A stretch of DNA of 49,290 nt from Bacillota bacterium (GTDB lineage Bacteria > Bacillota > Limnochordia > Darwinibacteriales > Darwinibacteriaceae): positions 1-49,290 of the forward strand of contig JAAYRO010000155.1 of the NCBI GenBank assembly GCA_012518735.1, read 5' to 3'. A program made the position numbers and the translations under genes. Of this stretch, positions 14,610 through 41,799 are shown piece by piece (positions within the stretch are counted from its first letter, which is position 1; each line of letters opens with the position of its first letter). Under the pieces are notes generated by a model, which made no database searches, was not told the origin of the DNA, and saw only the letters and a program-made list of their open reading frames with translations.

Positions 14610-14638
14610 TTGACAAAATGAGGGATGTTCAATATTCT
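14610..14638 (+). promoter_or_regulatory. Promoter for the RibU-like gene
   Basis: A perfect TTGACA is separated by 17 bases from TATTCT. The ORF-track ATG at 14625 lies inside this promoter, so the real start must be downstream. The leader is only about 30 bases, too short for an FMN riboswitch. Confidence 0.87.
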
Positions 14639-14669
14639 AAAGATAGCATATAGAATGGAGGCATTTTTC

Positions 14670-15209
14670 ATGCAGACGGAAACTCGCCAGCTCGTTAATA
14701 TGGCCGTCCTTGTAACGGCAGCAACTATTCTCATGGTTATAGTTCAAATTCCCCTATTTCCATCAGCGCCGTTTCTGAAATACGATCCAAGCGACATCCC
14801 CCTTCTAATTGGAGGGTTCTGGTTTGGGCCGCTGCCAGGTATTATTATGGTTTTCATGAAGGCCTTTTTCTTTTTGCTGATCAAGGGCGCGGAAGGTCCC
14901 ATTGGCGCCTTTCAAAACTTTATGGCATCTGGTAGTTTCGTCTTCTTTGCTTCCTTGTATTATCAAAAAGCTCGAACACGCCGCGGTGCTATTGTGGCAC
15001 TATTCCTAGGTTCTCTAGCTATGACATTAATCATGATTCCTACCAATTACATAGTTCTGCCAATTTGGGGCATTCCCAAGGAAATAGTACCAGGCTTCAT
15101 TCTTAAAATATCTACACCATTCAATCTAGTAAAGGGACTATTGAGTTCTATCTTCACATACCTGTTATATAAACGAGTGAAGTCCATCTTAGAATCCCTC
15201 TGGTCCTAG
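14670..15209 (+). CDS. ECF transporter substrate-binding component, RibU-like (riboflavin)
   Basis: A 179-residue integral membrane S component that would capture a vitamin, probably riboflavin, and work with the shared EcfAA'T module (not in the window). About five or six hydrophobic segments are visible. The KYDPSDIPLLIGGFWFGPLPG stretch is characteristic of RibU and its relatives. The start was set at the ATG eight bases after GGAGG, because the track's upstream ATG overlaps the promoter. Riboflavin would feed the FMN-dependent proteins elsewhere in the window (inference). Confidence 0.83.
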   Translation: MQTETRQLVNMAVLVTAATILMVIVQIPLFPSAPFLKYDPSDIPLLIGGFWFGPLPGIIMVFMKAFFFLLIKGAEGPIGAFQNFMASGSFVFFASLYYQKARTRRGAIVALFLGSLAMTLIMIPTNYIVLPIWGIPKEIVPGFILKISTPFNLVKGLLSSIFTYLLYKRVKSILESLWS

Positions 15210-18773: not shown

Positions 18774-19727
18774 TTGAAAGATAATGATAAGCTCATTGAG
18801 CAAGTCAAACCAGAACCGCTGAGCGTTCAATCGGAAGCACAGACAGTATGCGGACCAAATACTACACCTTATACGGTGCGTGAAGGTGATACCTTTTTTA
18901 CCATAGCTAGACAATTTGGAGTGAGCCTTGATGCACTAGTGGCCGCCAATCCACAGATTCCCGATCCAAGCCGAATCTTCCCAGGGCAAACTGTTTGCAT
19001 TCCTGGACAACAACCAACCCAATGCCCACCTGGAACATTCAGCTATACAGTTCAACCTGGTGACTCCATGTTTACTATTGCTCAGCGTTTTGGAGTATCC
19101 CTTGATGCCCTCATTGCAGCAAATCCCCAGATTCCCAATCCTAATGTGATTTTCCCTGGACAGATCGTGTGCGTCCCAACGACAGCACCACCCACATGCC
19201 CACCTGGAACATTCAGCTATACAGTTCAGCCTGGTGACTCCATGTTTACTATTGCCCAACGTTTTGGAGTATCCCTTAACGCCCTCATTGCAGCCAATCC
19301 CCAAATTCCCGACCCCAGTTTGATTTTCCCAGGACAGATCGTATGTGTTCCAACAACAGCACCACCTCCACCAACAACATGCCCACCGGGAACGTTCCGT
19401 TATACTGTTCAACCAGGTGATTCCATGTGGAGAATTGCACAGCGCTTTGGAGTGTCCTTAAACGCTCTCATAGCAGCAAATCCACAAATCCCTAATCCTA
19501 GTCTAATTTTCCCTGGGCAGATTGTCTGTGTCCCAACAACAGCACCACCTCCACCAACAACGTGTCCACCTGGAACCTTCCGATATACTGTTCAACCAGG
19601 TGATTCCATGTGGAAAATCGCACAGCGTTTCGGAGTATCGCTCAACGCTCTCATCGCAGCAAATCCCCAGATTTCCGATCCAAGCCGGATTTTCCCAGGG
19701 CAAATTGTTTGTGTACCCAACCGGTAG
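18774..19727 (+). CDS. Five-LysM, cysteine-containing repeat protein (spore-coat type)
   Basis: A 317-residue protein built from five LysM modules of 57-62 residues. Each has YTVQPGDSMFTIAQRFGVSL-like and ALIAANPQIP elements, and ends in GQIVCVP followed by a TCPPG linker, so cysteines mark each module boundary. LysM binds N-acetylglucosamine-containing glycans such as peptidoglycan. There is no signal peptide or membrane segment. SafA-like spore-coat proteins of Firmicutes share this look, so assembly on the forespore is plausible. The start is a TTG eight bases after AAGGAGG; the last four modules are nearly identical. Confidence 0.9.
   Translation: MKDNDKLIEQVKPEPLSVQSEAQTVCGPNTTPYTVREGDTFFTIARQFGVSLDALVAANPQIPDPSRIFPGQTVCIPGQQPTQCPPGTFSYTVQPGDSMFTIAQRFGVSLDALIAANPQIPNPNVIFPGQIVCVPTTAPPTCPPGTFSYTVQPGDSMFTIAQRFGVSLNALIAANPQIPDPSLIFPGQIVCVPTTAPPPPTTCPPGTFRYTVQPGDSMWRIAQRFGVSLNALIAANPQIPNPSLIFPGQIVCVPTTAPPPPTTCPPGTFRYTVQPGDSMWKIAQRFGVSLNALIAANPQISDPSRIFPGQIVCVPNR
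19018..19720 (+). repeat. Tandem repeat of the LysM module
   Basis: Four consecutive copies of a unit of about 177-186 bases, highly alike at nucleotide level (ccacctggaac-att, cagtttggagtatcc-like blocks, ccagggcagat-gt-tgt). The last two linkers carry an extra proline-rich ACAGCACCACCTCCACC stretch. Close nucleotide identity suggests recent duplication or gene conversion. Confidence 0.85.
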
Positions 19728-20072: not shown

Positions 20073-20101
20073 TTGACTACATACAGTGGCTGTGCTACCG
20101 T
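20073..20101 (+). promoter_or_regulatory. Candidate promoter for the first FMN-binding protein gene
   Basis: TTGACT, a 17-base spacer and TACCGT, about 60 bases upstream of the ATG and directly after the preceding terminator. The -10 is weak. Confidence 0.5.
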
Positions 20102-20162
20102 TAGAATGGGTACGGTTGGTGATTGTCTACACAATAATTACGTTTGGGAGGAATAACAAGAA

Positions 20163-20849
20163 ATGAAGAGAGCCTCTTTTTTGATTAGTCTAGGACTAGT
20201 CCTTGTCATATGTACTACAGCCTTTGCTGCATGGAACGATGGAACCTATGAAGCATGGTCCGATGCAGGCGCACGGAGTACTCAATATGCAAAAGTTTTC
20301 ATTAAGGACGGAAAGATCGCAGCTGTCATTGTACGGGAGTTTACCGACCGCTTGGTTGAGAAGGATTGGACAAACTACAGCTATCCCCCATTTGGTGAAG
20401 CCGCTAGAGCAATTGGCGCTGAATTCGTAAAGGCCCAAAGTGCTGACATTGATGTGATTTCTGGTGCCACCGGTAGTTCTCAAGGCTGGATTCAAGCTGT
20501 AGAGCGAGCTCTGGTTAAAGCTTCTCCTCAGAAACCTGGGAATAAGTATTTTGATGGAACCTTTCTCGGTCGCTCTGATGTAGCTAGTAGAGGTTACTAT
20601 GAGGTGGTATGGGTAACCATCAAGGACGATCAAATTACGGACATTAAAATACAGCGAGTGCTGGAGGACTTATCTATCCTCGATCCAGCAGATTACAACT
20701 ATCCACTTGAAGCAGCTCGTGAAGCCTACGTAGAACAAGCTATTGCAGGCAACACCAGCAGTGTAGATACTATTTCGGGAGCAACTGGCTTGACAGGAAT
20801 GCTTAACATTGCCGTTCAAGATGCTCTAGATAGAGCTGTAATCCAGTAA
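20163..20849 (+). CDS. Exported protein with two FMN-binding (flavinylation) domains, copy A
   Basis: A 228-residue secreted protein: signal peptide (residues 1-22, cleavage near TAFA), then two FMN_bind domains. Each ends in the flavin-transferase motif D-x-x-S-G-A-T: DVISGAT with T103 and DTISGAT with T208. In this family ApbE attaches FMN covalently to that threonine, outside the membrane. The protein lacks a membrane anchor or haem motif, so it may be a soluble extracytoplasmic electron carrier. It is a paralogue of the next gene and has its own terminator. An apbE gene lies at 34541. Confidence 0.88.
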   Translation: MKRASFLISLGLVLVICTTAFAAWNDGTYEAWSDAGARSTQYAKVFIKDGKIAAVIVREFTDRLVEKDWTNYSYPPFGEAARAIGAEFVKAQSADIDVISGATGSSQGWIQAVERALVKASPQKPGNKYFDGTFLGRSDVASRGYYEVVWVTIKDDQITDIKIQRVLEDLSILDPADYNYPLEAAREAYVEQAIAGNTSSVDTISGATGLTGMLNIAVQDALDRAVIQ

Positions 20850-20886
20850 GAAGAAAGAAAGCACATATAGATCCAACCAGTCCCAC

Positions 20887-20915
20887 GAGTGTAGGCAATG
20901 CTTACACTCTTTTTC
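20887..20915 (+). terminator. Terminator after FMN-binding protein A
   Basis: GAGTGTA and TACACTC with inner wobble and GC pairs closing a 3-base AAT loop, followed by TTTTTC. Confidence 0.85.
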
Positions 20916-20924
20916 TAAATATTA

Positions 20925-20953
20925 TTGACTATCGTTGACAAAAGTGATATTCT
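20925..20953 (+). promoter_or_regulatory. Promoter for FMN-binding protein B
   Basis: TTGACT, a 17-base spacer and TATTCT, 64 bases upstream of the start codon. Together with the terminator just before it, this makes copy B a separate transcript from copy A. Confidence 0.78.
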
Positions 20954-21016
20954 TAATTTGGGTAAATGGTGAAAGTATTCACTAGAACACTCTAAACTAA
21001 ACGGGAGGTTGTTTTA

Positions 21017-21706
21017 ATGAAAAGATGTTCTCTTGTTATGGCATTAGTATTAGTCTTATCATTGACAGCAGTATCTGCTGCCGCAACCTGGGTTGATGGA
21101 ACCTATGTTGGATGGTCAGATGCAGGTCCAAAGAGCATTCAGTCGGCAAAGGTTTATATCGAAGATGGCAAAATCGCAGCAGTAACACTTAGAGAGTTCA
21201 CCGACAAACACATTGAGAAAGACTGGAGTACTTATCCTTGGGAACCTGCTGGTGAAGCAGCTCGTACCCTCGGTCAGCAGTTTGTTGCCAATCAAGCAGC
21301 TCAAGCTGACGTTGTAACTGGAGCCACTCACAGCTCTAATGGATGGATTCAAGCAGTAGAAAGAGCTCTAGTTAAGGCTGAGAATAAAGAACACGACAAA
21401 ACATATTTCGATGGCACTTTCCTAGGCCGTTCTGATGTTTCCAGCAGAGGCTACTACAAAGTGGTTTGGGTTACCATCAAAGATGATAAGATTGTCGATT
21501 ACTCGGTACAACGAGTATTGGCAGACCATACTATTCAAGACCCAGAGGAGTACGGATGGCCATTAGAACAAGCTCGTGAAGCTTATAAAGAAGCTGCTAT
21601 GAACAGTACACCTGGATTTGTCGATACAATTACAGGTGCAACTGGCTTAACACAGATGTCTAACATTGCAGTTCGGGATGCACTGGACAAAGCGAGAATT
21701 AAATAG
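21017..21706 (+). CDS. Exported protein with two FMN-binding (flavinylation) domains, copy B
   Basis: A 229-residue paralogue of the preceding gene: signal peptide (1-22), two FMN_bind domains and two flavinylation motifs, DVVTGAT (T104) and DTITGAT (T209). Blocks such as FDGTFLGRSDVSSRGYY are nearly the same in both copies, and all four target threonines are kept. The start has GGGAGG eight bases upstream. It ends at a very strong terminator, convergent with rex. Separate promoters for A and B suggest differential expression rather than simple dosage. Confidence 0.88.
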   Translation: MKRCSLVMALVLVLSLTAVSAAATWVDGTYVGWSDAGPKSIQSAKVYIEDGKIAAVTLREFTDKHIEKDWSTYPWEPAGEAARTLGQQFVANQAAQADVVTGATHSSNGWIQAVERALVKAENKEHDKTYFDGTFLGRSDVSSRGYYKVVWVTIKDDKIVDYSVQRVLADHTIQDPEEYGWPLEQAREAYKEAAMNSTPGFVDTITGATGLTQMSNIAVRDALDKARIK

Positions 21707-21730: not shown

Positions 21731-21768
21731 GAAAACACCCAGATATTCGTATCTGGGTGTTTTCACTT
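21731..21768 (+). terminator. Strong terminator with UUCG tetraloop
   Basis: GAAAACACCCAGATA and TATCTGGGTGTTTTC pair over 15 bases around TTCG. The A-tract/T-tract symmetry allows function in both directions. Confidence 0.93.
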
Positions 21769-21882: not shown

Positions 21883-22548
21883 TCAGCTCGACTCTTCTGC
21901 CCGCCATTTCTCATTTAGACGAAATGACAACCGAAGCAGACTATCTGTCAAATGCATATGTTCAACGAGAACATGATCTGGTACATTGAGATGAACTGGG
22001 GAGAAATTCCATATACTAGCTACTCCATTTCTCACAACGATGTCGCATACCTCTTGGCTTGCGCTGCTCGGTGTGGCAATAATCGCGATGTCCGTTGGAT
22101 ATTTTTGCACATACTCTTCAAGATACCATACAGGCTGAATAACACACCCAGCATGATGGTTTCCTAGTAATAACGTATCCACGTCAAAGATGGCCTGAAT
22201 CTTGAAACCCATGTGCTTGAAGTTTTCGTAACTAGCAATAGCTTTTCCAAGGTTTCCGGCACCAATCAATATCATAGAATACACTCGATTGAGTCCTAAA
22301 ATGTTTCTCACCTGCTTAAGCAGATCACTTACATTATAACCATAACCCTGTTGACCAAAGGAACCGAAGAAACTTAAATCGGAACGAACTTGGGCTGCTG
22401 TGAAATCCAAACCCTCTCCGAGTTGGGCTGAAGAAACTCGTGTTTCACCCTGTTCCTCTAATTCCAATAAGTAGCGGTAATAAACAGGCAGACGGGATAC
22501 GACCCCTTGGGGAATCCCAGAGTCTTTTTTACGTCCTCTAGCAGACAT
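21883..22548 (-). CDS. rex: Redox-sensing transcriptional repressor Rex
   Basis: Rex represses fermentative and respiratory genes when NADH is low and leaves DNA when it binds NADH. The 221 residues have an N-terminal winged helix (VSRLPVYYRYLLELEEQG, SSAQLGEGLDFTAAQVRSDLSFFG) and a Rossmann domain with ILIGAGNLGKAIASY, ending in the domain-swapped helix. The track start is nine codons too early: the ATG at 22548 has AGGAGG six bases upstream. A Rex-box-like sequence lies upstream. Rnf and the exported flavoproteins nearby are plausible targets. Confidence 0.97.
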   Translation of the reverse strand: MSARGRKKDSGIPQGVVSRLPVYYRYLLELEEQGETRVSSAQLGEGLDFTAAQVRSDLSFFGSFGQQGYGYNVSDLLKQVRNILGLNRVYSMILIGAGNLGKAIASYENFKHMGFKIQAIFDVDTLLLGNHHAGCVIQPVWYLEEYVQKYPTDIAIIATPSSASQEVCDIVVRNGVASIWNFSPVHLNVPDHVLVEHMHLTDSLLRLSFRLNEKWRAEESS

Positions 22549-22610
22549 CTCACCCCTCCTTGATTTATCCATATATTACCTAGTATTTGAGTTATTTCGA
22601 CACAAGAGGC

Positions 22611-22628
22611 TTGTATCCTTTTTCACAA
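22611..22628. promoter_or_regulatory. Candidate Rex operator upstream of rex
   Basis: TTGTATCCTTTTTCACAA (plus strand) resembles the known Rex site TTGTGAAATATTTCACAA, with an exact TTGTGAAA half on the minus strand and a weaker second half. It sits 63 bases upstream of the rex start, just downstream of a TTGACA (22637-22642, minus strand), where it would block polymerase. Autoregulation is inference. Confidence 0.45.
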
Positions 22629-22664
22629 TCATTTATTGTCAAATAATCCCATGGCGAGAGATCG

Positions 22665-34540: not shown

Positions 34541-35569
34541 TCAAAGTATTTGTTCTTCCAATTCTGGTGATATCCATACCCCGTCCTGGGAAACAATAAT
34601 AGCTTCCACGCCCGCCATTTCTTCAACCAGCCGACTGCCTGCTTCCATTCCTAAGACAAAGATGGCTGTTGAAAGTGCATCTGCCACTGTAGCGCTTTCT
34701 GTAACAACCGTCACACTCTTCAGCTCACGGGCTGGGTACCCAGTCCTAGGGTCGATAATATGATGCCATTTTTGATCGTTAAAAACAAAGTAACGCTGAT
34801 AATCTCCAGACGTTACAACACTGCTGTCTTCTAAAGGCAAGATCCAACGTATATCCGCTGGATTATCTGGATTCTGCACACCAACCCGCCACGGCGTATC
34901 ATCTGGACGTCTTCCAATTACAGATATGTCACCACCGGCGTTAATAATGGAACGCTTCGCATTGCTTTTCCTTAACAACCTAGAAGCCTGATCTACTGCA
35001 TAGCCTTTAGCAATTCCACCTAGGTCCAAAATGGTCCCTTCTGGAATTCGCACTTTTCGCTCTGCTTCATCAATCTCTACTTTTTCGTAGCCTACAGTCT
35101 TTAGAGCCTGTACTATTTCTTCTTCACTAGGAACTTTATAGTCTCCTGTACCAAATCCCCACAGTTCTATTACGGCACCAATCGTTACATCAAAAGCTCC
35201 ATCACTCAGTTCTGAAATACGCAGCGCTTCTTTTACTAAATCGATGGTGAATTGGGAAACCTCCACCCACTGTCCTGCATGGGCATTAATCTTTGACACC
35301 TCACTTGTGTCAACATAACGGGATAGTGACTTCTCGATGCCTTCAATTTCAGCAAAAGCCTGGTTCACCAGTTCCTCTGAATTTCGAGCATCAACACGTA
35401 TATCCACAGTGGTGTCCATGAGAATTCTTGATCGTTGATTAGTGGTAGTATGGCTCTCTACATAAGGCACATAAACCCCATAATAGGCCACTACGCACAA
35501 AACGGCCACCCCAATGAATATCCCCACAATAACTAGGAAGTGATTCCGTGATTTTGACAATCCCCTCAC
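34541..35569 (-). CDS. apbE: FAD:protein FMN transferase (flavin transferase)
   Basis: ApbE splits FAD and attaches FMN to Thr/Ser of D-x-x-S/T-G-A-T/S motifs on exported domains, here expected on RnfG and RnfD. The 342 residues start with a membrane anchor (about 11-33) and contain MDTTVDIRVDA, GAFDVTIGAVIELWGFG, LDLGGIAKGYAVD, NAGGDISVIG and HHIIDPRTGYPA. It is the last gene of the rnf operon, 14 bases after rnfB, with a GTG start behind GGAGGTG. The two exported double-FMN-domain proteins at 20-22 kb are further likely substrates. Confidence 0.96.
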   Translation of the reverse strand: MRGLSKSRNHFLVIVGIFIGVAVLCVVAYYGVYVPYVESHTTTNQRSRILMDTTVDIRVDARNSEELVNQAFAEIEGIEKSLSRYVDTSEVSKINAHAGQWVEVSQFTIDLVKEALRISELSDGAFDVTIGAVIELWGFGTGDYKVPSEEEIVQALKTVGYEKVEIDEAERKVRIPEGTILDLGGIAKGYAVDQASRLLRKSNAKRSIINAGGDISVIGRRPDDTPWRVGVQNPDNPADIRWILPLEDSSVVTSGDYQRYFVFNDQKWHHIIDPRTGYPARELKSVTVVTESATVADALSTAIFVLGMEAGSRLVEEMAGVEAIIVSQDGVWISPELEEQIL

Positions 35570-35583
35570 CAGAACACCTCCCC

Positions 35584-36414
35584 TTAACTCGCCGATTTTT
35601 TCTTGATAACAGGTTTTCCTTCTTGCGCTTCAATTGTGTTCATTGGGCAGACTTCCACACACTTGCGGCAGTTAATACACTTATCGTAGTCGATTCTTGC
35701 CAGATTGTCTTCTACAGTAATAGCACCTGTGGGACAAGCCTTTTCACAGCGGCGGCAGGCAATACATCCTACAGAACAAACGGAACGAACAGCTCGCCCT
35801 AGTTCCTCGGAGCGGCAGCGAATGTGGACACCCTGCACTTCGTCTACAAGGACAATTATATCTCGAGGACAAGCGGCAACACATTTACCGCAGGCAGTAC
35901 ATTTATCTTCCAAGACCACTGGTAAACCGTTCTCATTCATGACTATGGCATCAAAAGGACAGACAGAGGCACAGGTTCCATATCCTAGACAACCATAGCT
36001 GCATCCTTTGTCTCCACCCTGCACAGCATTGGCAATTCGGCAGTCCTGAGGACCCATATAGTCTCCTCGCCGTTTTGCTTCTTCATGTCCACCTTTACAC
36101 AGCACCTGAGCTACTTTGCGACCAGCGCTGCCTTGATCCTCCACTCCCAAAATCTCTGCCACCAGCTTGGCTACACGTGCCCCGCCTACAGGACAGCCGT
36201 TTGTAGGCGCTTTCCCCGAAGCTACACCCTCAGCGAAACTGCGGCACCCTGCAAACCCACACGCGCCACAATTAACACCAGGTAATACCTCTTCTATTTC
36301 ATCGACCCGAGGGTCGGTTTCTACAGCGAATTTCTTCGAAGCTACCGCAAGTCCAAGTGCAAAAAGTGCACCCATGGTACCCATGCTGATGAGGGATACT
36401 ACAGTAGTGCTCAC
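35584..36414 (-). CDS. rnfB: Rnf complex subunit B (iron-sulfur)
   Basis: The electron-entry subunit of the ferredoxin:NAD+ oxidoreductase, which couples electron flow to Na+ or H+ export. The 276 residues have an N-terminal membrane helix (about 5-27), the Fe-S motif CGACGFAGC with a downstream Cys, then ferredoxin-like clusters (CSYGCLGYGTCASVCP, CTACGKCVAACP, CIACRRCEKACP, CINCRKCVEVCP). A GTG start follows GGGAGGG. It stands between rnfA and apbE. Confidence 0.96.
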   Translation of the reverse strand: MSTTVVSLISMGTMGALFALGLAVASKKFAVETDPRVDEIEEVLPGVNCGACGFAGCRSFAEGVASGKAPTNGCPVGGARVAKLVAEILGVEDQGSAGRKVAQVLCKGGHEEAKRRGDYMGPQDCRIANAVQGGDKGCSYGCLGYGTCASVCPFDAIVMNENGLPVVLEDKCTACGKCVAACPRDIIVLVDEVQGVHIRCRSEELGRAVRSVCSVGCIACRRCEKACPTGAITVEDNLARIDYDKCINCRKCVEVCPMNTIEAQEGKPVIKKKSAS

Positions 36415-36444
36415 GTTAAACCCTCCCTAAATATGCAATCTCTA

Positions 36445-37017
36445 CTAAACAAGGCCTGCAAATCCGCTGAAAGCTAAGGACAGCAATCCAGCTACAATAA
36501 AGGCGATTCCTGCACCTTGTAAAGGCTTGGGAACATCAGAAAACCGCAGTTCTTCTCTAATCCCTGCCAAGAGGACCAAGGCAAGGGTAAAGCCTAAACC
36601 GCCGCCCAACCCAAATACGACCGACTCAATGAACGTATAACCGCCCTGTACAGCCATAATAGCTAAACCTAAGATGGCACAGTTTGTCGTAATAAGAGGC
36701 AGGAAGATACCCATGGAGCGGTATAAACTAGGACTCGTCTTGTGGAGAAACATCTCCACAAGCTGAACCATTGAGGCAATGACCAGAATAAACGCAACAT
36801 TTTGCAGAAACGGTAATCCAAAAGGTTCTAATATGAACCACTGAATCAACCAAGTAGCAGCGGAAGCAACCACCATGACAAACGTTGTCGCTAGTCCCAT
36901 TCCTAAAGCAGTTTCTACCTGTTTAGATACACCCATAAAGGGGCAGATTCCTAAAAACCTAACCAAAACGAAATTGTTGACCAAAATAGCACTAAGCAGT
37001 ATTACTAACAAGTTCAT
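36445..37017 (-). CDS. rnfA: Rnf complex subunit A (membrane)
   Basis: A 190-residue polytopic membrane subunit with six hydrophobic segments, homologous to RnfE. The conserved [19 protein letters not shown] near the N-terminus carries the Cys that, with its RnfE counterpart, holds the intramembrane Fe-S cluster known from Rnf structures. TTNCAILG is the second conserved cysteine motif. It is followed by rnfB after 30 bases. Confidence 0.96.
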
Positions 37018-37033
37018 AGTGAGTCACCTCCCC

Positions 37034-37639
37034 TTAACTAACCTTATTTTGACGAGCAGCGATCATGTTCATTAACGCCATTAATATTCCAAGTGTAATA
37101 AAGGCACCTGGAGGAAGTCCCATAATACCAAGGGTGGGCGTGCCCTCCGGGAGCAGTTGTTTTCCAAAAATGGAGCCTGCACCGAGAATCTCCCTAATTG
37201 AACCTAACAGTGTTAATGCCCACGTAAAGCCAAGACCCATTCCTAAGCCATCAAAAATGGAGTTAATAACAGGCATTTTCGATGCATAAGCTTCTGCACG
37301 ACCTAACACAATACAGTTCACCACAATCAAGGGAATAAATAGACCCAAGACACGGTGCAGATCTGGCAGAAGAGCATTCATAAACAAATCTACAATCGTA
37401 ACAAAAGTAGCAATGATGATAATGAACGAAGGAATCCGTACCTTATCGGGAATGAGATTCTTCAACAGGCTGATCAGGGCACTCGAACACACCAAAACAA
37501 ACGTGGTAGCCAATCCCATAGACATACCGTTAATGGCACTTGTCGTGACTGCCAAAGTAGGGCACAGTCCAATCATAATTCTGAATGTGGGGTTTTCGGA
37601 CCACAGACCACGTCTTAAGTCATTTAAGATACCTTTCAT
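37034..37639 (-). CDS. rnfE: Rnf complex subunit E (membrane)
   Basis: A 201-residue membrane subunit, paralogous to RnfA in inverted topology. The conserved MIGLCPTLAVTTSAINGMSMG near the N-terminus and IVVNCIVLGRAEAYAS further on carry the cluster cysteines. Its start has AAGGAGG upstream, two bases after rnfG. It forms the ion-translocating core with RnfA and RnfD. Confidence 0.96.
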   Translation of the reverse strand: MKGILNDLRRGLWSENPTFRIMIGLCPTLAVTTSAINGMSMGLATTFVLVCSSALISLLKNLIPDKVRIPSFIIIIATFVTIVDLFMNALLPDLHRVLGLFIPLIVVNCIVLGRAEAYASKMPVINSIFDGLGMGLGFTWALTLLGSIREILGAGSIFGKQLLPEGTPTLGIMGLPPGAFITLGILMALMNMIAARQNKVS

Positions 37640-37641
37640 GC

Positions 37642-38235
37642 TTAGTTCCCTCCTTTATAAGCAGCAGTCGCCTCGTCAAATCCACGACGAACAGCTTCAC
37701 TAACGGCCCGACTGGAAACAGTAGCACCGGAAATACTGTCAATATCTTTACCCAACGCAATAGGATCTTGGACAGACTTACCAATGAACTGACTGCGGAA
37801 CGTTTCCTCTTCAATGCGGGACCCTAACCCGGGGGTTTCAGCATGACTCAAAATCTTGAGCCCTACAATCTTGTTTGTCTCTTCCCCAACACCCACCAAT
37901 ACACGAACAGCCCCTCCGTATCCATTAGCTTCACCTACGAAGGCATAGCCTACGGCCTTACCAGAATCATCGAGTCCCTGATAAATAAGGGTAATGCGCT
38001 GTTCTTCTTCACGCATCTCTTTCGGATCATCTTCCACCAACCGATCTTGCGGGCTGGCCTTAATTATCTCAACCTTTGAGATCCCAGGAAGAACTTCGAA
38101 GACAGAACTTTCTAGTTCTCGAGCAGCGTTCTCTTCAATTATACCACTAGTAACACTGTATACCTGCGACAAAATACCTGCAGATACCATAGCAATTACT
38201 GTCAATACCACGACCATGCGTACAGACTCACTCAC
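37642..38235 (-). CDS. rnfG: Rnf complex subunit G (covalent FMN)
   Basis: A 197-residue subunit anchored by one N-terminal helix, with an extracytoplasmic FMN_bind domain. The flavinylation motif DSISGATVSS places covalent FMN on T172. Electron transfer runs through it between RnfD and RnfC/RnfB sites. The GTG start overlaps the end of rnfD by eight bases. It is the in-operon substrate of ApbE. Confidence 0.96.
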   Translation of the reverse strand: MSESVRMVVVLTVIAMVSAGILSQVYSVTSGIIEENAARELESSVFEVLPGISKVEIIKASPQDRLVEDDPKEMREEEQRITLIYQGLDDSGKAVGYAFVGEANGYGGAVRVLVGVGEETNKIVGLKILSHAETPGLGSRIEEETFRSQFIGKSVQDPIALGKDIDSISGATVSSRAVSEAVRRGFDEATAAYKGGN

Positions 38236-39151
38236 TAGCCTTCACCCCCTGGCCATAAATGCGAGGACGCGTCCAGCGATTCAGCAGCGGTGTTACAGCA
38301 TTCATAATCAAAATGGCGAATGTAACTCCTTCTGGATAGCTTCCCCACAGTCTAATCAGCATAATGATCAGACCAACACCAATTCCAAAAATCCACCGAC
38401 CAATCGGTGTCACTGGTGAAGTCACCATATCGGTAGCCATAAACACAGCACCAAATAAGAGACTTCCAGACAGAAGATGGAATACAGGATTCTGCCCAGC
38501 AAGTAGACTAATAACAATGGTAGAACCGAATATACCTAAGGGAATCCGATAATCTAGGGCACCTCGGTAAAACAGATAAATTCCACCTAATAAAATGGCA
38601 AGTGCAGAGGTCTCACCAAGAGAACCAGCAACAGAGCCAAAAAACAAGTCTGGCAAACTAGTACGGGCAGCTCCAAGGGCCAATGGTGTTGCAGCTGAAA
38701 CTGTATCAAATGGTCCAGTCCAAGCTGTCATGGGAACAGCAAAGGACGCTGTCAAAAACGCCCGTCCAACTAAGGCTGGGTTAAATGGATTTTGTCCCAA
38801 CCCGCCAAAAACCTGCTTACCAATGGCAATGGCAAATACAGAACCTAAGACCACCATCCAACTGGGCAGCGTTGGAGGAACGATCAATCCCAAGAGCATC
38901 CCAGTAACTAACGCACTCCCATCCCACACAGTAATGGGCTTCTTGCGCAGCTTTTGAAATACTGCTTCTGTTGCTACTGCTGCAGCCGATGATAGAACTA
39001 CCAGCCGCAGGGCATTTAAACCGAAAAAGTACACAGCTGCAACCAGTACGGGCAGCAGCGAAACAAGCACTGAAAACATAATATTTTGTGTCGTATCTTT
39101 ATCCCGGATATGGGGAGACGGTGAAATCACCAATTTTAAATCTTCCATCAT
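38228..39151 (-). CDS. rnfD: Rnf complex subunit D (membrane, covalent FMN)
   Basis: A 307-residue integral membrane subunit of the NqrB/RnfD family with about nine hydrophobic segments. GGLGQNPFNPALVGRAF and the SAATPLALG stretch, whose Thr is the expected FMN attachment site, are diagnostic. It starts with ATGATG after GGAGGG, 14 bases downstream of rnfC. Confidence 0.96.
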   Translation of the reverse strand: MMEDLKLVISPSPHIRDKDTTQNIMFSVLVSLLPVLVAAVYFFGLNALRLVVLSSAAAVATEAVFQKLRKKPITVWDGSALVTGMLLGLIVPPTLPSWMVVLGSVFAIAIGKQVFGGLGQNPFNPALVGRAFLTASFAVPMTAWTGPFDTVSAATPLALGAARTSLPDLFFGSVAGSLGETSALAILLGGIYLFYRGALDYRIPLGIFGSTIVISLLAGQNPVFHLLSGSLLFGAVFMATDMVTSPVTPIGRWIFGIGVGLIIMLIRLWGSYPEGVTFAILIMNAVTPLLNRWTRPRIYGQGVKASE

Positions 39152-39165
39152 TGCCCAACCCTCCT

Positions 39166-40482
39166 CTAGCTTGATTTTCTACGATTTGCGGCAGCGATCT
39201 CCCTCTTAGCTAAGCGAATATACTGCAGCAGAGGACGTTTTGAAGGACATATATATGAACAGCAGCCGCACTCAATACAGTCCATTGCTCCATACTCAGC
39301 TGCTTCATCCCACATCTCATTCATGCCAAATGCTTCCAACCGTAAAGGCATTAAATAAGCTGGACAAACATCTACACAACGAGCGCACTTAATGCAGGGA
39401 ATAGACTCTGGTAAGCTGCTATCATCTTTACTCAGGGCAACTAATCCTGTAACGGTCTTAACAACAGGAGTATCCAAACTGATTTGAGTTACACCCATCA
39501 TAGGTCCGCCTACTAGGATCTTCCCAGGCTCTTCCTTAAATCCACCGGCAGCCTCAAACAAATACTCAAATGGAGTACCGATTCTAGCAAGAAAGTTCTT
39601 TGGTTCATTGACGACACCACCAGTGACTGTCACAACTCGCATTATAGATGGTTCCCCATCTCGAACAGCTCTAGTAACAGCTAGTGCAGTACTTACGTTA
39701 TGGACGATAGTACCGGCTTGGAACGGCAGGCCTCTGCTGGGCACTTCTCGGCCTGTTACAGCCTTTATTAACTGTTTTTCGCCACCTTGAGGATACTTCG
39801 TGGCTACTGGCACAATCTCAATTGCACCGGCCCTCTCCTGCAGTGCAGTAATGGCGTCTGGCTTATTATCCTCCACCGCAATTATAATCTTGCGAGCCCC
39901 GCATACCTTAGCCATGAGCTTGGCTCCTAAGATTACATCATCTGCATATTCTACCATGACACGATGGTCAGCTGTTAAATAGGGTTCGCACTCACTTCCA
40001 TTAAGAATCAGATAATCGATAACTGCGTTTTTCGGAGGACTAAGTTTAACTGCAGCTGGAAATCCCCCTCCACCCATTCCAACGATGCCTGCATCCTTAA
40101 TCTTCTGAAGGATGGTATTTCTGTCAAGTTGGACAGGATCGTTATGATTCTCTCGTTCAACCCATTCGTCTCGGCCATCATTCTCTATGACAACGGCCAT
40201 TCTTGAACTTCCACACGGATGAAGCCTAGGCTCCACCGCTGTTACCTTTCCTGATACTGGGGAGTGAATAGGAGCACTGATGCCATGGCTTGTCTCGCCA
40301 ATGACTTGTCCAACCTTAACTGTATCTCCCTTAGCTACAACTGGTGCAGCTGGCGCACCCGTATGCTGATCCATAGACACTACTAGTGTCTCGGGTGCCG
40401 GGAGAATTTCGATAGGACTCCCTGCAGTGGTCTCCTTTTCGTATTTCGGATGAATCCCTCCGAAAAACGTTTTAACTCGCAT
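39166..40482 (-). CDS. rnfC: Rnf complex subunit C (NADH/FMN/iron-sulfur)
   Basis: A 438-residue peripheral subunit that reacts with NAD(H). The N-terminal barrel (GGIHPKYEKETTAGSPIE) is followed by the NADH/FMN-binding GMGGGGFPAAVKL and LNGSECEPYLTADHRVM, and two ferredoxin-like clusters (CIKCARCVDVCP and CIECGCCSYICPSKRPL). It is the first gene of the rnfCDGEAB-apbE operon; no strong promoter is obvious in the 78 bases upstream. Confidence 0.96.
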   Translation of the reverse strand: MRVKTFFGGIHPKYEKETTAGSPIEILPAPETLVVSMDQHTGAPAAPVVAKGDTVKVGQVIGETSHGISAPIHSPVSGKVTAVEPRLHPCGSSRMAVVIENDGRDEWVERENHNDPVQLDRNTILQKIKDAGIVGMGGGGFPAAVKLSPPKNAVIDYLILNGSECEPYLTADHRVMVEYADDVILGAKLMAKVCGARKIIIAVEDNKPDAITALQERAGAIEIVPVATKYPQGGEKQLIKAVTGREVPSRGLPFQAGTIVHNVSTALAVTRAVRDGEPSIMRVVTVTGGVVNEPKNFLARIGTPFEYLFEAAGGFKEEPGKILVGGPMMGVTQISLDTPVVKTVTGLVALSKDDSSLPESIPCIKCARCVDVCPAYLMPLRLEAFGMNEMWDEAAEYGAMDCIECGCCSYICPSKRPLLQYIRLAKREIAAANRRKSS

Positions 40483-41097: not shown

Positions 41098-41799
41098 TTA
41101 AAACACGTATCGAATAAAACCCTGGAGCTGCTCTCCATTCCACCCAGCGCCCACAGACATAGGTTGATCAGGAACCTCTATCAAACCGTGGGCACTAAAC
41201 CCTTCTTCGTCATAAGCCAAATCGATTTTCAAGCTCTCCGTTGGCTCTAAATATGAAATTCCTACACCAAAAGTGGAGCCTAAAATGGCTGAGAGACGCC
41301 ATGTACCGCCTCGTTTCAGCTGAAGATATGGTTTAATGGAATAGTCAACCCCGCCTGAATCATCCACAAATATCTGGGCAGTCCCACTTAGACCGTGACC
41401 GTATTCACCGTACATTCGATTGTACTCGCCATACGCTCCTATATGAGGGGCAACATTGTCTAAGAATGTTGCTAAAATGGGACGTTGCGTATTAGCCACG
41501 AACACCTCCAAAGTGTATCCCACATTACCTACATAGACCTGCTTATGTCCGCCAATCCAACTTGAAAATTGATCAACATCCACGTCATGTGAAAGATAAC
41601 CAGCAACTCCAGTCTTTTCGTACCCAAAGAAACCTAGAGGTTTAATGCTCTCCTGGCTCAAACCAAGTCCAGCCTGCCATCCAGAAGCCCCGTACCCGAA
41701 CAGCATATCACCCGTTACGGATGCGGCTGTACACGGAGTTGGTGTTAAGTATAGAACTAGATAGAAAATAATCAAGATAAAAAGCTGGGGCGTTCGCAC
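41098..41799 (-). CDS. Exported putative beta-barrel protein
   Basis: A 233-residue protein that I do not recognise by family. It has a signal peptide (1-25, ending CTAAS) and a mature chain of alternating strands rich in Gly, Tyr and Trp, ending in QLQGFIRYVF. A final aromatic strand with C-terminal Phe is the hallmark of outer-membrane barrels. It follows a LolA-like gene by 11 bases. In a single-membrane cell this would be odd, so it hints at a diderm envelope. The start is a GTG after AGGAGGG. Confidence 0.65.
   Translation of the reverse strand: MRTPQLFILIIFYLVLYLTPTPCTAASVTGDMLFGYGASGWQAGLGLSQESIKPLGFFGYEKTGVAGYLSHDVDVDQFSSWIGGHKQVYVGNVGYTLEVFVANTQRPILATFLDNVAPHIGAYGEYNRMYGEYGHGLSGTAQIFVDDSGGVDYSIKPYLQLKRGGTWRLSAILGSTFGVGISYLEPTESLKIDLAYDEEGFSAHGLIEVPDQPMSVGAGWNGEQLQGFIRYVF

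Follow-up and report, generated by a model that had tools for sequence, protein, structure and literature searches.

A tandem pair of exported two-domain FMN_bind proteins in a Bacillota genome and their possible coupling to Rnf

Two adjacent genes in the window, as we call the whole stretch of 49,290 nucleotides that was analyzed, come from an uncultured anaerobic bacterium and encode exported proteins with two FMN_bind domains each. The sequences indicate that both products, ORF1 and ORF2, are likely exported carriers of two flavins each, and we lean slightly toward the view that they are soluble periplasmic two-FMN electron carriers coupled to Rnf. What is new here is the order-wide single-copy orthology of the gene, its homologues in Rnf operons, the lone ApbE gene in the window's rnf operon, the presence of Omp85, and a palindrome that is nearly private to the gene.

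The gene pair and its predicted flavinylation sites

The two genes are as follows.

20163..20849, + strand: ORF1, exported protein with two FMN_bind domains; signal peptide, residues 1-22; sites DVISGAT (97-103) and DTISGAT (202-208)
21017..21706, + strand: ORF2, exported protein with a signal peptide and two FMN_bind domains; sites DVVTGAT (98-104) and DTITGAT (203-209)

Good Shine-Dalgarno sequences precede both genes, and the products, of 228 and 229 amino acids, are paralogues with 62% identity (dN 0.32; dS is saturated, so no dN/dS ratio is given). Pfam FMN_bind, with a cut-off of 22 bits, matches ORF1 and ORF2 at 56.1 and 46.6 bits over two stretches per protein, confirming the sequence-only reading of two paralogues with a signal peptide and two FMN_bind domains each. 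The four ApbE-type sites that it had named are all present and canonical, D-x-x-[ST]-G-A-T being perfect at four of four, with one site per domain. The looser pattern D-x-x-[ST]-G-A-[ST] occurs five times among the called proteins of the window, at these four sites and in RnfG, while the chance expectation is 0.06 over the 14,549 amino acids of the window and 0.002 in the 457 amino acids of ORF1 and ORF2. A PHROGs search gave no match.

The N-termini read as typical signal peptides of the signal-peptidase-I type, ending AFA↓A and SAAA↓T. A signal peptide can be read in all 30 sequences of the order set (ORF1, ORF2, and 28 from other genomes), and a lipobox is absent from all 30. Neither ORF1 nor ORF2 has a membrane helix beyond the signal peptide, a CxxCH motif, or a fused partner domain, which bears out the earlier statement that membrane helix, haem site, and fused redox partner are lacking. 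In the AlphaFold model of ORF2 (pLDDT 88.4), the protein folds into two alpha/beta domains, and each acceptor threonine is found where a helix begins; in the PDB, the closest folds are those of the FMN_bind proteins 3o6u, 8p2a, and 8p2b. The circularly permuted two-domain form (PMC11334425) was ruled out, as each domain in the model has its own C-terminal helix.

What could load these sites with flavin? The relevant genes also lie in the window.

34541..35569, − strand: apbE, FMN transferase (316 bits), the sole hit in the assembly; predicted loader of the FMNs
35584..40482, − strand: rnfC-D-G-E-A-B, just upstream of apbE on the same strand; the proposed electron donor

The only ApbE gene detected in the genome is part of the window's own rnf operon, 13 kb from ORF1 and ORF2. 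The RnfG of this operon (37642-38235) scores 120 bits against TIGR01947. The sequence features, together with the ApbE gene, support the claim that these are soluble exported proteins with two predicted covalent FMNs each.

Other flavin-related genes were seen in the same genome, which has two rnf operons. In the second operon (L043:2796-6094 in C32 and L046:1-1422 in C232), a single gene joins RnfD to RnfG and no fewer than three FMN_bind domains, and the assembly probably breaks within this fusion gene. A two-domain FMN_bind protein of 215 amino acids, exported or anchored, is encoded directly after a trpB-like gene (L044:3291-3938 in C196) and is only distantly related to ORF1 and ORF2. A single FMN_bind protein of 142 amino acids (L010:1312-1740 in C15) is probably membrane-anchored. 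Within the window, 14625-15209 encodes an ECF-type transporter S component of the riboflavin type (PF12822, PF07155), which might supply flavin.

Comparison with known flavinylated proteins

By their sequences, ORF1 and ORF2 belong to the recognised class of multi-flavinylated extracytosolic proteins, since each has more than one FMN_bind domain, a motif in every domain, and an export signal, and ApbE is encoded in the genome. Free-standing members of this class have been described, amounting to 2081 proteins in 1530 genomes (Meheust 2021, PMC8238504; also PMC11334425), and the soluble multi-FMN proteins SaFMN3 and CbFMN4 have been purified, and ApbE was shown to flavinylate them in E. coli (PMC10339131). 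The PplA protein of Listeria carries FMN on Thr143 and Thr265 (PMC8906456). Furthermore, two-domain homologues are widespread in the phylum and most of them are lipoproteins, with a lipobox in 17 of 19 more distant relatives. Thus, the earlier view that this kind is familiar chiefly from domains within larger proteins is not supported. ORF1 and ORF2 share with the class the export, the several FMN_bind domains, the ApbE motifs, the absence of any other domain, and the fold (3o6u, 8p2a, 8p2b), but they differ in having two domains each, in being tandem paralogues, and in that the gene stands alone beside rex rather than apbE. Directly downstream of phylum-level two-domain relatives (L104, L106, L109), the gene found is apbE.

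Could ORF1 and ORF2 serve extracellular electron transfer as PplA does, taking electrons from a membrane system other than Rnf that oxidises quinol or NADH and handing them on to soluble flavins or metals on the outside? PplA (NF041941) is their best NCBIfam match, and it likewise has two FMN_bind domains with two FMN threonines (PMC8906456). However, the scores of 30.4 and 27.5 bits are far below the cut-off of 325, and PplA, encoded with eet genes, is a lipoprotein some 300 amino acids long, whereas ORF1 and ORF2 are without a lipobox. No NapH-like Fer4_5 protein was found in the source genome, and a NapH-like donor was dropped from consideration on this ground. In addition, the homologues in class relatives accompany rnf, with no eet cluster. 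We therefore regard a PplA-like role as rather improbable; identity with PplA itself is rejected by the score and by the missing lipobox in the order sequences. Identity with RnfG was rejected as well, as ORF1 and ORF2 score 19.4 and 16.5 bits against TIGR01947, for which the cut-off is 102.

Gene context, transcription signals, and the Rnf operons of relatives

The gene is a single-copy syntenic orthologue across the order. The 28 further genomes of the order have one copy each, and the tandem is restricted to the source genome; a widespread tandem arrangement is ruled out, as 34 of the 35 genomes with the family in the source class (73 genomes) have a single copy. Those relatives that have names are uncultured Bacillota MAGs. 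Synteny is mostly conserved as LysM - ykoF - gene - (one or two genes) - rex - hypotheticals - metallophosphatase - ParB-like - nth - ftsI - dacF. The LysM protein of the window (18774-19727), syntenic with the flavin gene throughout the order, consists of five near-identical LysM repeats. In the tree, ORF1 lies outside the other family sequences and ORF2 inside; the branch excluding ORF1 has a support of 92/77. This position would reflect either an old duplication followed by loss elsewhere or fast change in ORF1.

Across the 30 order sequences, neither site varies at its Asp, Ala, or Thr, and Asp and the terminal Thr are kept at both sites in every homologue that was aligned. A different residue stands in place of the Gly at a single site in 7 of the 30 order sequences, and at both sites in none. 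This replacement, and the frequent loss of strict motifs in the Rnf-operon homologues described below, might be taken to mean that the sites are without flavin and the FMN_bind domains have another role. We consider this very unlikely, given that the window's four sites are all canonical, that every order sequence retains at least one strict site, and that ApbE is encoded in the genome.

In the order, the gene is located beside rex with its own promoter, outside the rnf operon and some 13 kb or more away from it. By eye, the genes between it and rex in relatives resemble those for a FabI-type reductase and a membrane protein of the DUF554 type, and none is an obvious redox partner. One may ask whether the proteins instead act as the periplasmic redox partner of one particular reductase or oxidase whose gene lies elsewhere, such as a fumarate-reductase-like enzyme, with Rnf as only one of several donors. 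The gene is solitary in the order, and FMN_bind domains in other systems connect membrane donors with extracytosolic reductases encoded at distant loci (PMC8238504). No such reductase or oxidase adjoins the gene in 18 order loci, where neighbours were compared with the window genes and by eye only. This role appears unlikely to us.

The signals around the gene pair, and the neighbouring rex, are the following.

20073..20101, + strand: ORF1 promoter, probable and weak, TTGACT-17-TACCGT (from alignment of upstream regions; missed by the consensus scan)
20117..20134, + strand: degenerate palindrome TGGTGATTGTCTACACAA ahead of ORF1, by itself not above chance
20887..20909, + strand: intrinsic terminator of ORF1, between the two genes (terminator scan)
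20925..20953, + strand: ORF2 promoter, sigma-70-like, TTGACT-17-TATTCT (scan; layout kept in relatives)
20967..20984, + strand: palindrome TGGTGAAAGTATTCACTA, 32 nt ahead of ORF2, kept across the order and almost exclusive to the gene
21731..21764, + strand: probable ORF2 terminator, a perfect 15-bp inverted repeat with a TTCG loop (read from the sequence; missed by the scan)
21883..22572, − strand: rex, for the redox-sensing repressor; converges on the gene pair and keeps its synteny with the gene throughout the order

Separate promoters and terminators for the two genes, as the sequence-only reading had it, are thus plausible; the promoter of ORF1 is weaker than that of ORF2. The upstream regions of the orthologues have in common TTGACG/T-17-TAnnCT followed by the palindrome TRGTGAANNNNTTCACYA, which sits 25-42 nt ahead of the start codon. 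With at most one mismatch, TRGTGAANNNNTTCACYA is found at no other place in 286 kb of syntenic loci. Exact matches in 37 whole genomes number 16, of which 13 are ahead of this gene, and the reversed control gave none. The palindrome is not common to the rnfC upstream regions. An mRNA hairpin of -5.7 to -8.1 kcal/mol can form at this 5′ position, and the palindrome may be either an operator or a 5′ hairpin.

The palindrome differs at 2 positions from TTGTGAANNNNTTCACAA, and rex is a syntenic neighbour, so one could read it as a Rex operator that places the gene in an NADH-responsive Rex regulon, which would be compatible with any of the roles considered. This seems doubtful. Matches to the Rex consensus are no more frequent in the genome than chance would give (11 sites, and 12 in the reversed control), and the variant palindrome is almost private to the flavin gene, unlike the sites of a global regulon; for these two reasons, Rex regulation is not claimed. 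The rex upstream region carries another conserved element, and the 5′ mRNA hairpin is a possible alternative to an operator. That element, CTTGTGAAAAaGGATACAAG, lies at 22590-22630, recurs across the family, and is possibly autoregulatory.

The strongest functional clue comes from outside the order. In six of six class relatives there that encode a homologue, from three families, it is the first gene of a co-directional FMN2-rnfC-D-G-E-A-B-apbE cluster (in L067 and L068, one rnf subunit was uncalled by the simple ORF filter). The six proteins match the ORF1/2 profile at E-values from 1e-32 to 1e-42, far better than do the other FMN_bind proteins of the same genomes. Three of them group with the order at moderate support (86/93), but the six form no single clade. 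Their motifs are weakened (AKAT, AQAT, GST), and none of the six keeps both strict sites, which makes flavinylation at both sites less sure in these homologues; in a model protein, a Gly-to-Ala change at this motif position brings flavinylation down to about 50% (PMC12052999). Class relatives carry both a double-domain RnfG and the separate two-FMN protein. Several families have Rnf without the two-FMN protein, so the protein would be an Rnf accessory at most. The operon position thus suggests a function with Rnf, tempered by the weaker sites, the lack of a single clade, and the occurrence of Rnf without the protein.

Proposed role in the periplasm

Omp85 is encoded in 71 of the 73 class genomes, including the source genome, so an outer membrane and hence a periplasm are likely in the source bacterium. 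The source class is Limnochordia, which we take to be a diderm lineage of Bacillota. The window also encodes, at 41098-41799, an exported protein with no Pfam match and an aromatic last residue like that of an outer-membrane barrel; it adjoins a LolA-like gene.

In the mechanism that we slightly favor, ORF1 and ORF2 would be exported and then cut by signal peptidase I. The ApbE of the rnf operon would add one FMN each to Thr103 and Thr208 of ORF1 and to Thr104 and Thr209 of ORF2. The two-flavin protein would then dock at the outward-facing flavins of Rnf, on RnfG and RnfD, and exchange electrons with them. Rnf would thereby gain a branch that sends reducing equivalents into the periplasm in addition to NAD+. 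The basis for this mechanism is the two domains, four sites, signal peptides, single ApbE gene, Omp85, and the Rnf-operon position of the homologues; from these we infer the covalent FMN, the periplasmic location, the contact with Rnf, and the direction of flow.

A second outlet for Rnf has already been proposed for multi-flavinylated RnfG in RNF clusters (PMC8238504), and the Rnf-to-periplasm idea is the same here. There, as proposed here, extra FMN_bind domains are tied to Rnf, but here they are on a separate soluble protein. More tentatively, we suggest that in diderm Bacillota the soluble periplasmic two-FMN protein could be a dedicated, detachable branch of Rnf with its own operator, duplicated in this genome into two carriers. 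If so, Rnf could release electrons beyond the cytoplasmic membrane. Of exported proteins with several flavins, about two thousand have been catalogued, and for most of them no partner is known. A family of small, soluble proteins, usually single-copy, whose genes head rnf-apbE operons in six relatives offers a simple test case for whether Rnf can feed electrons to the periplasm.
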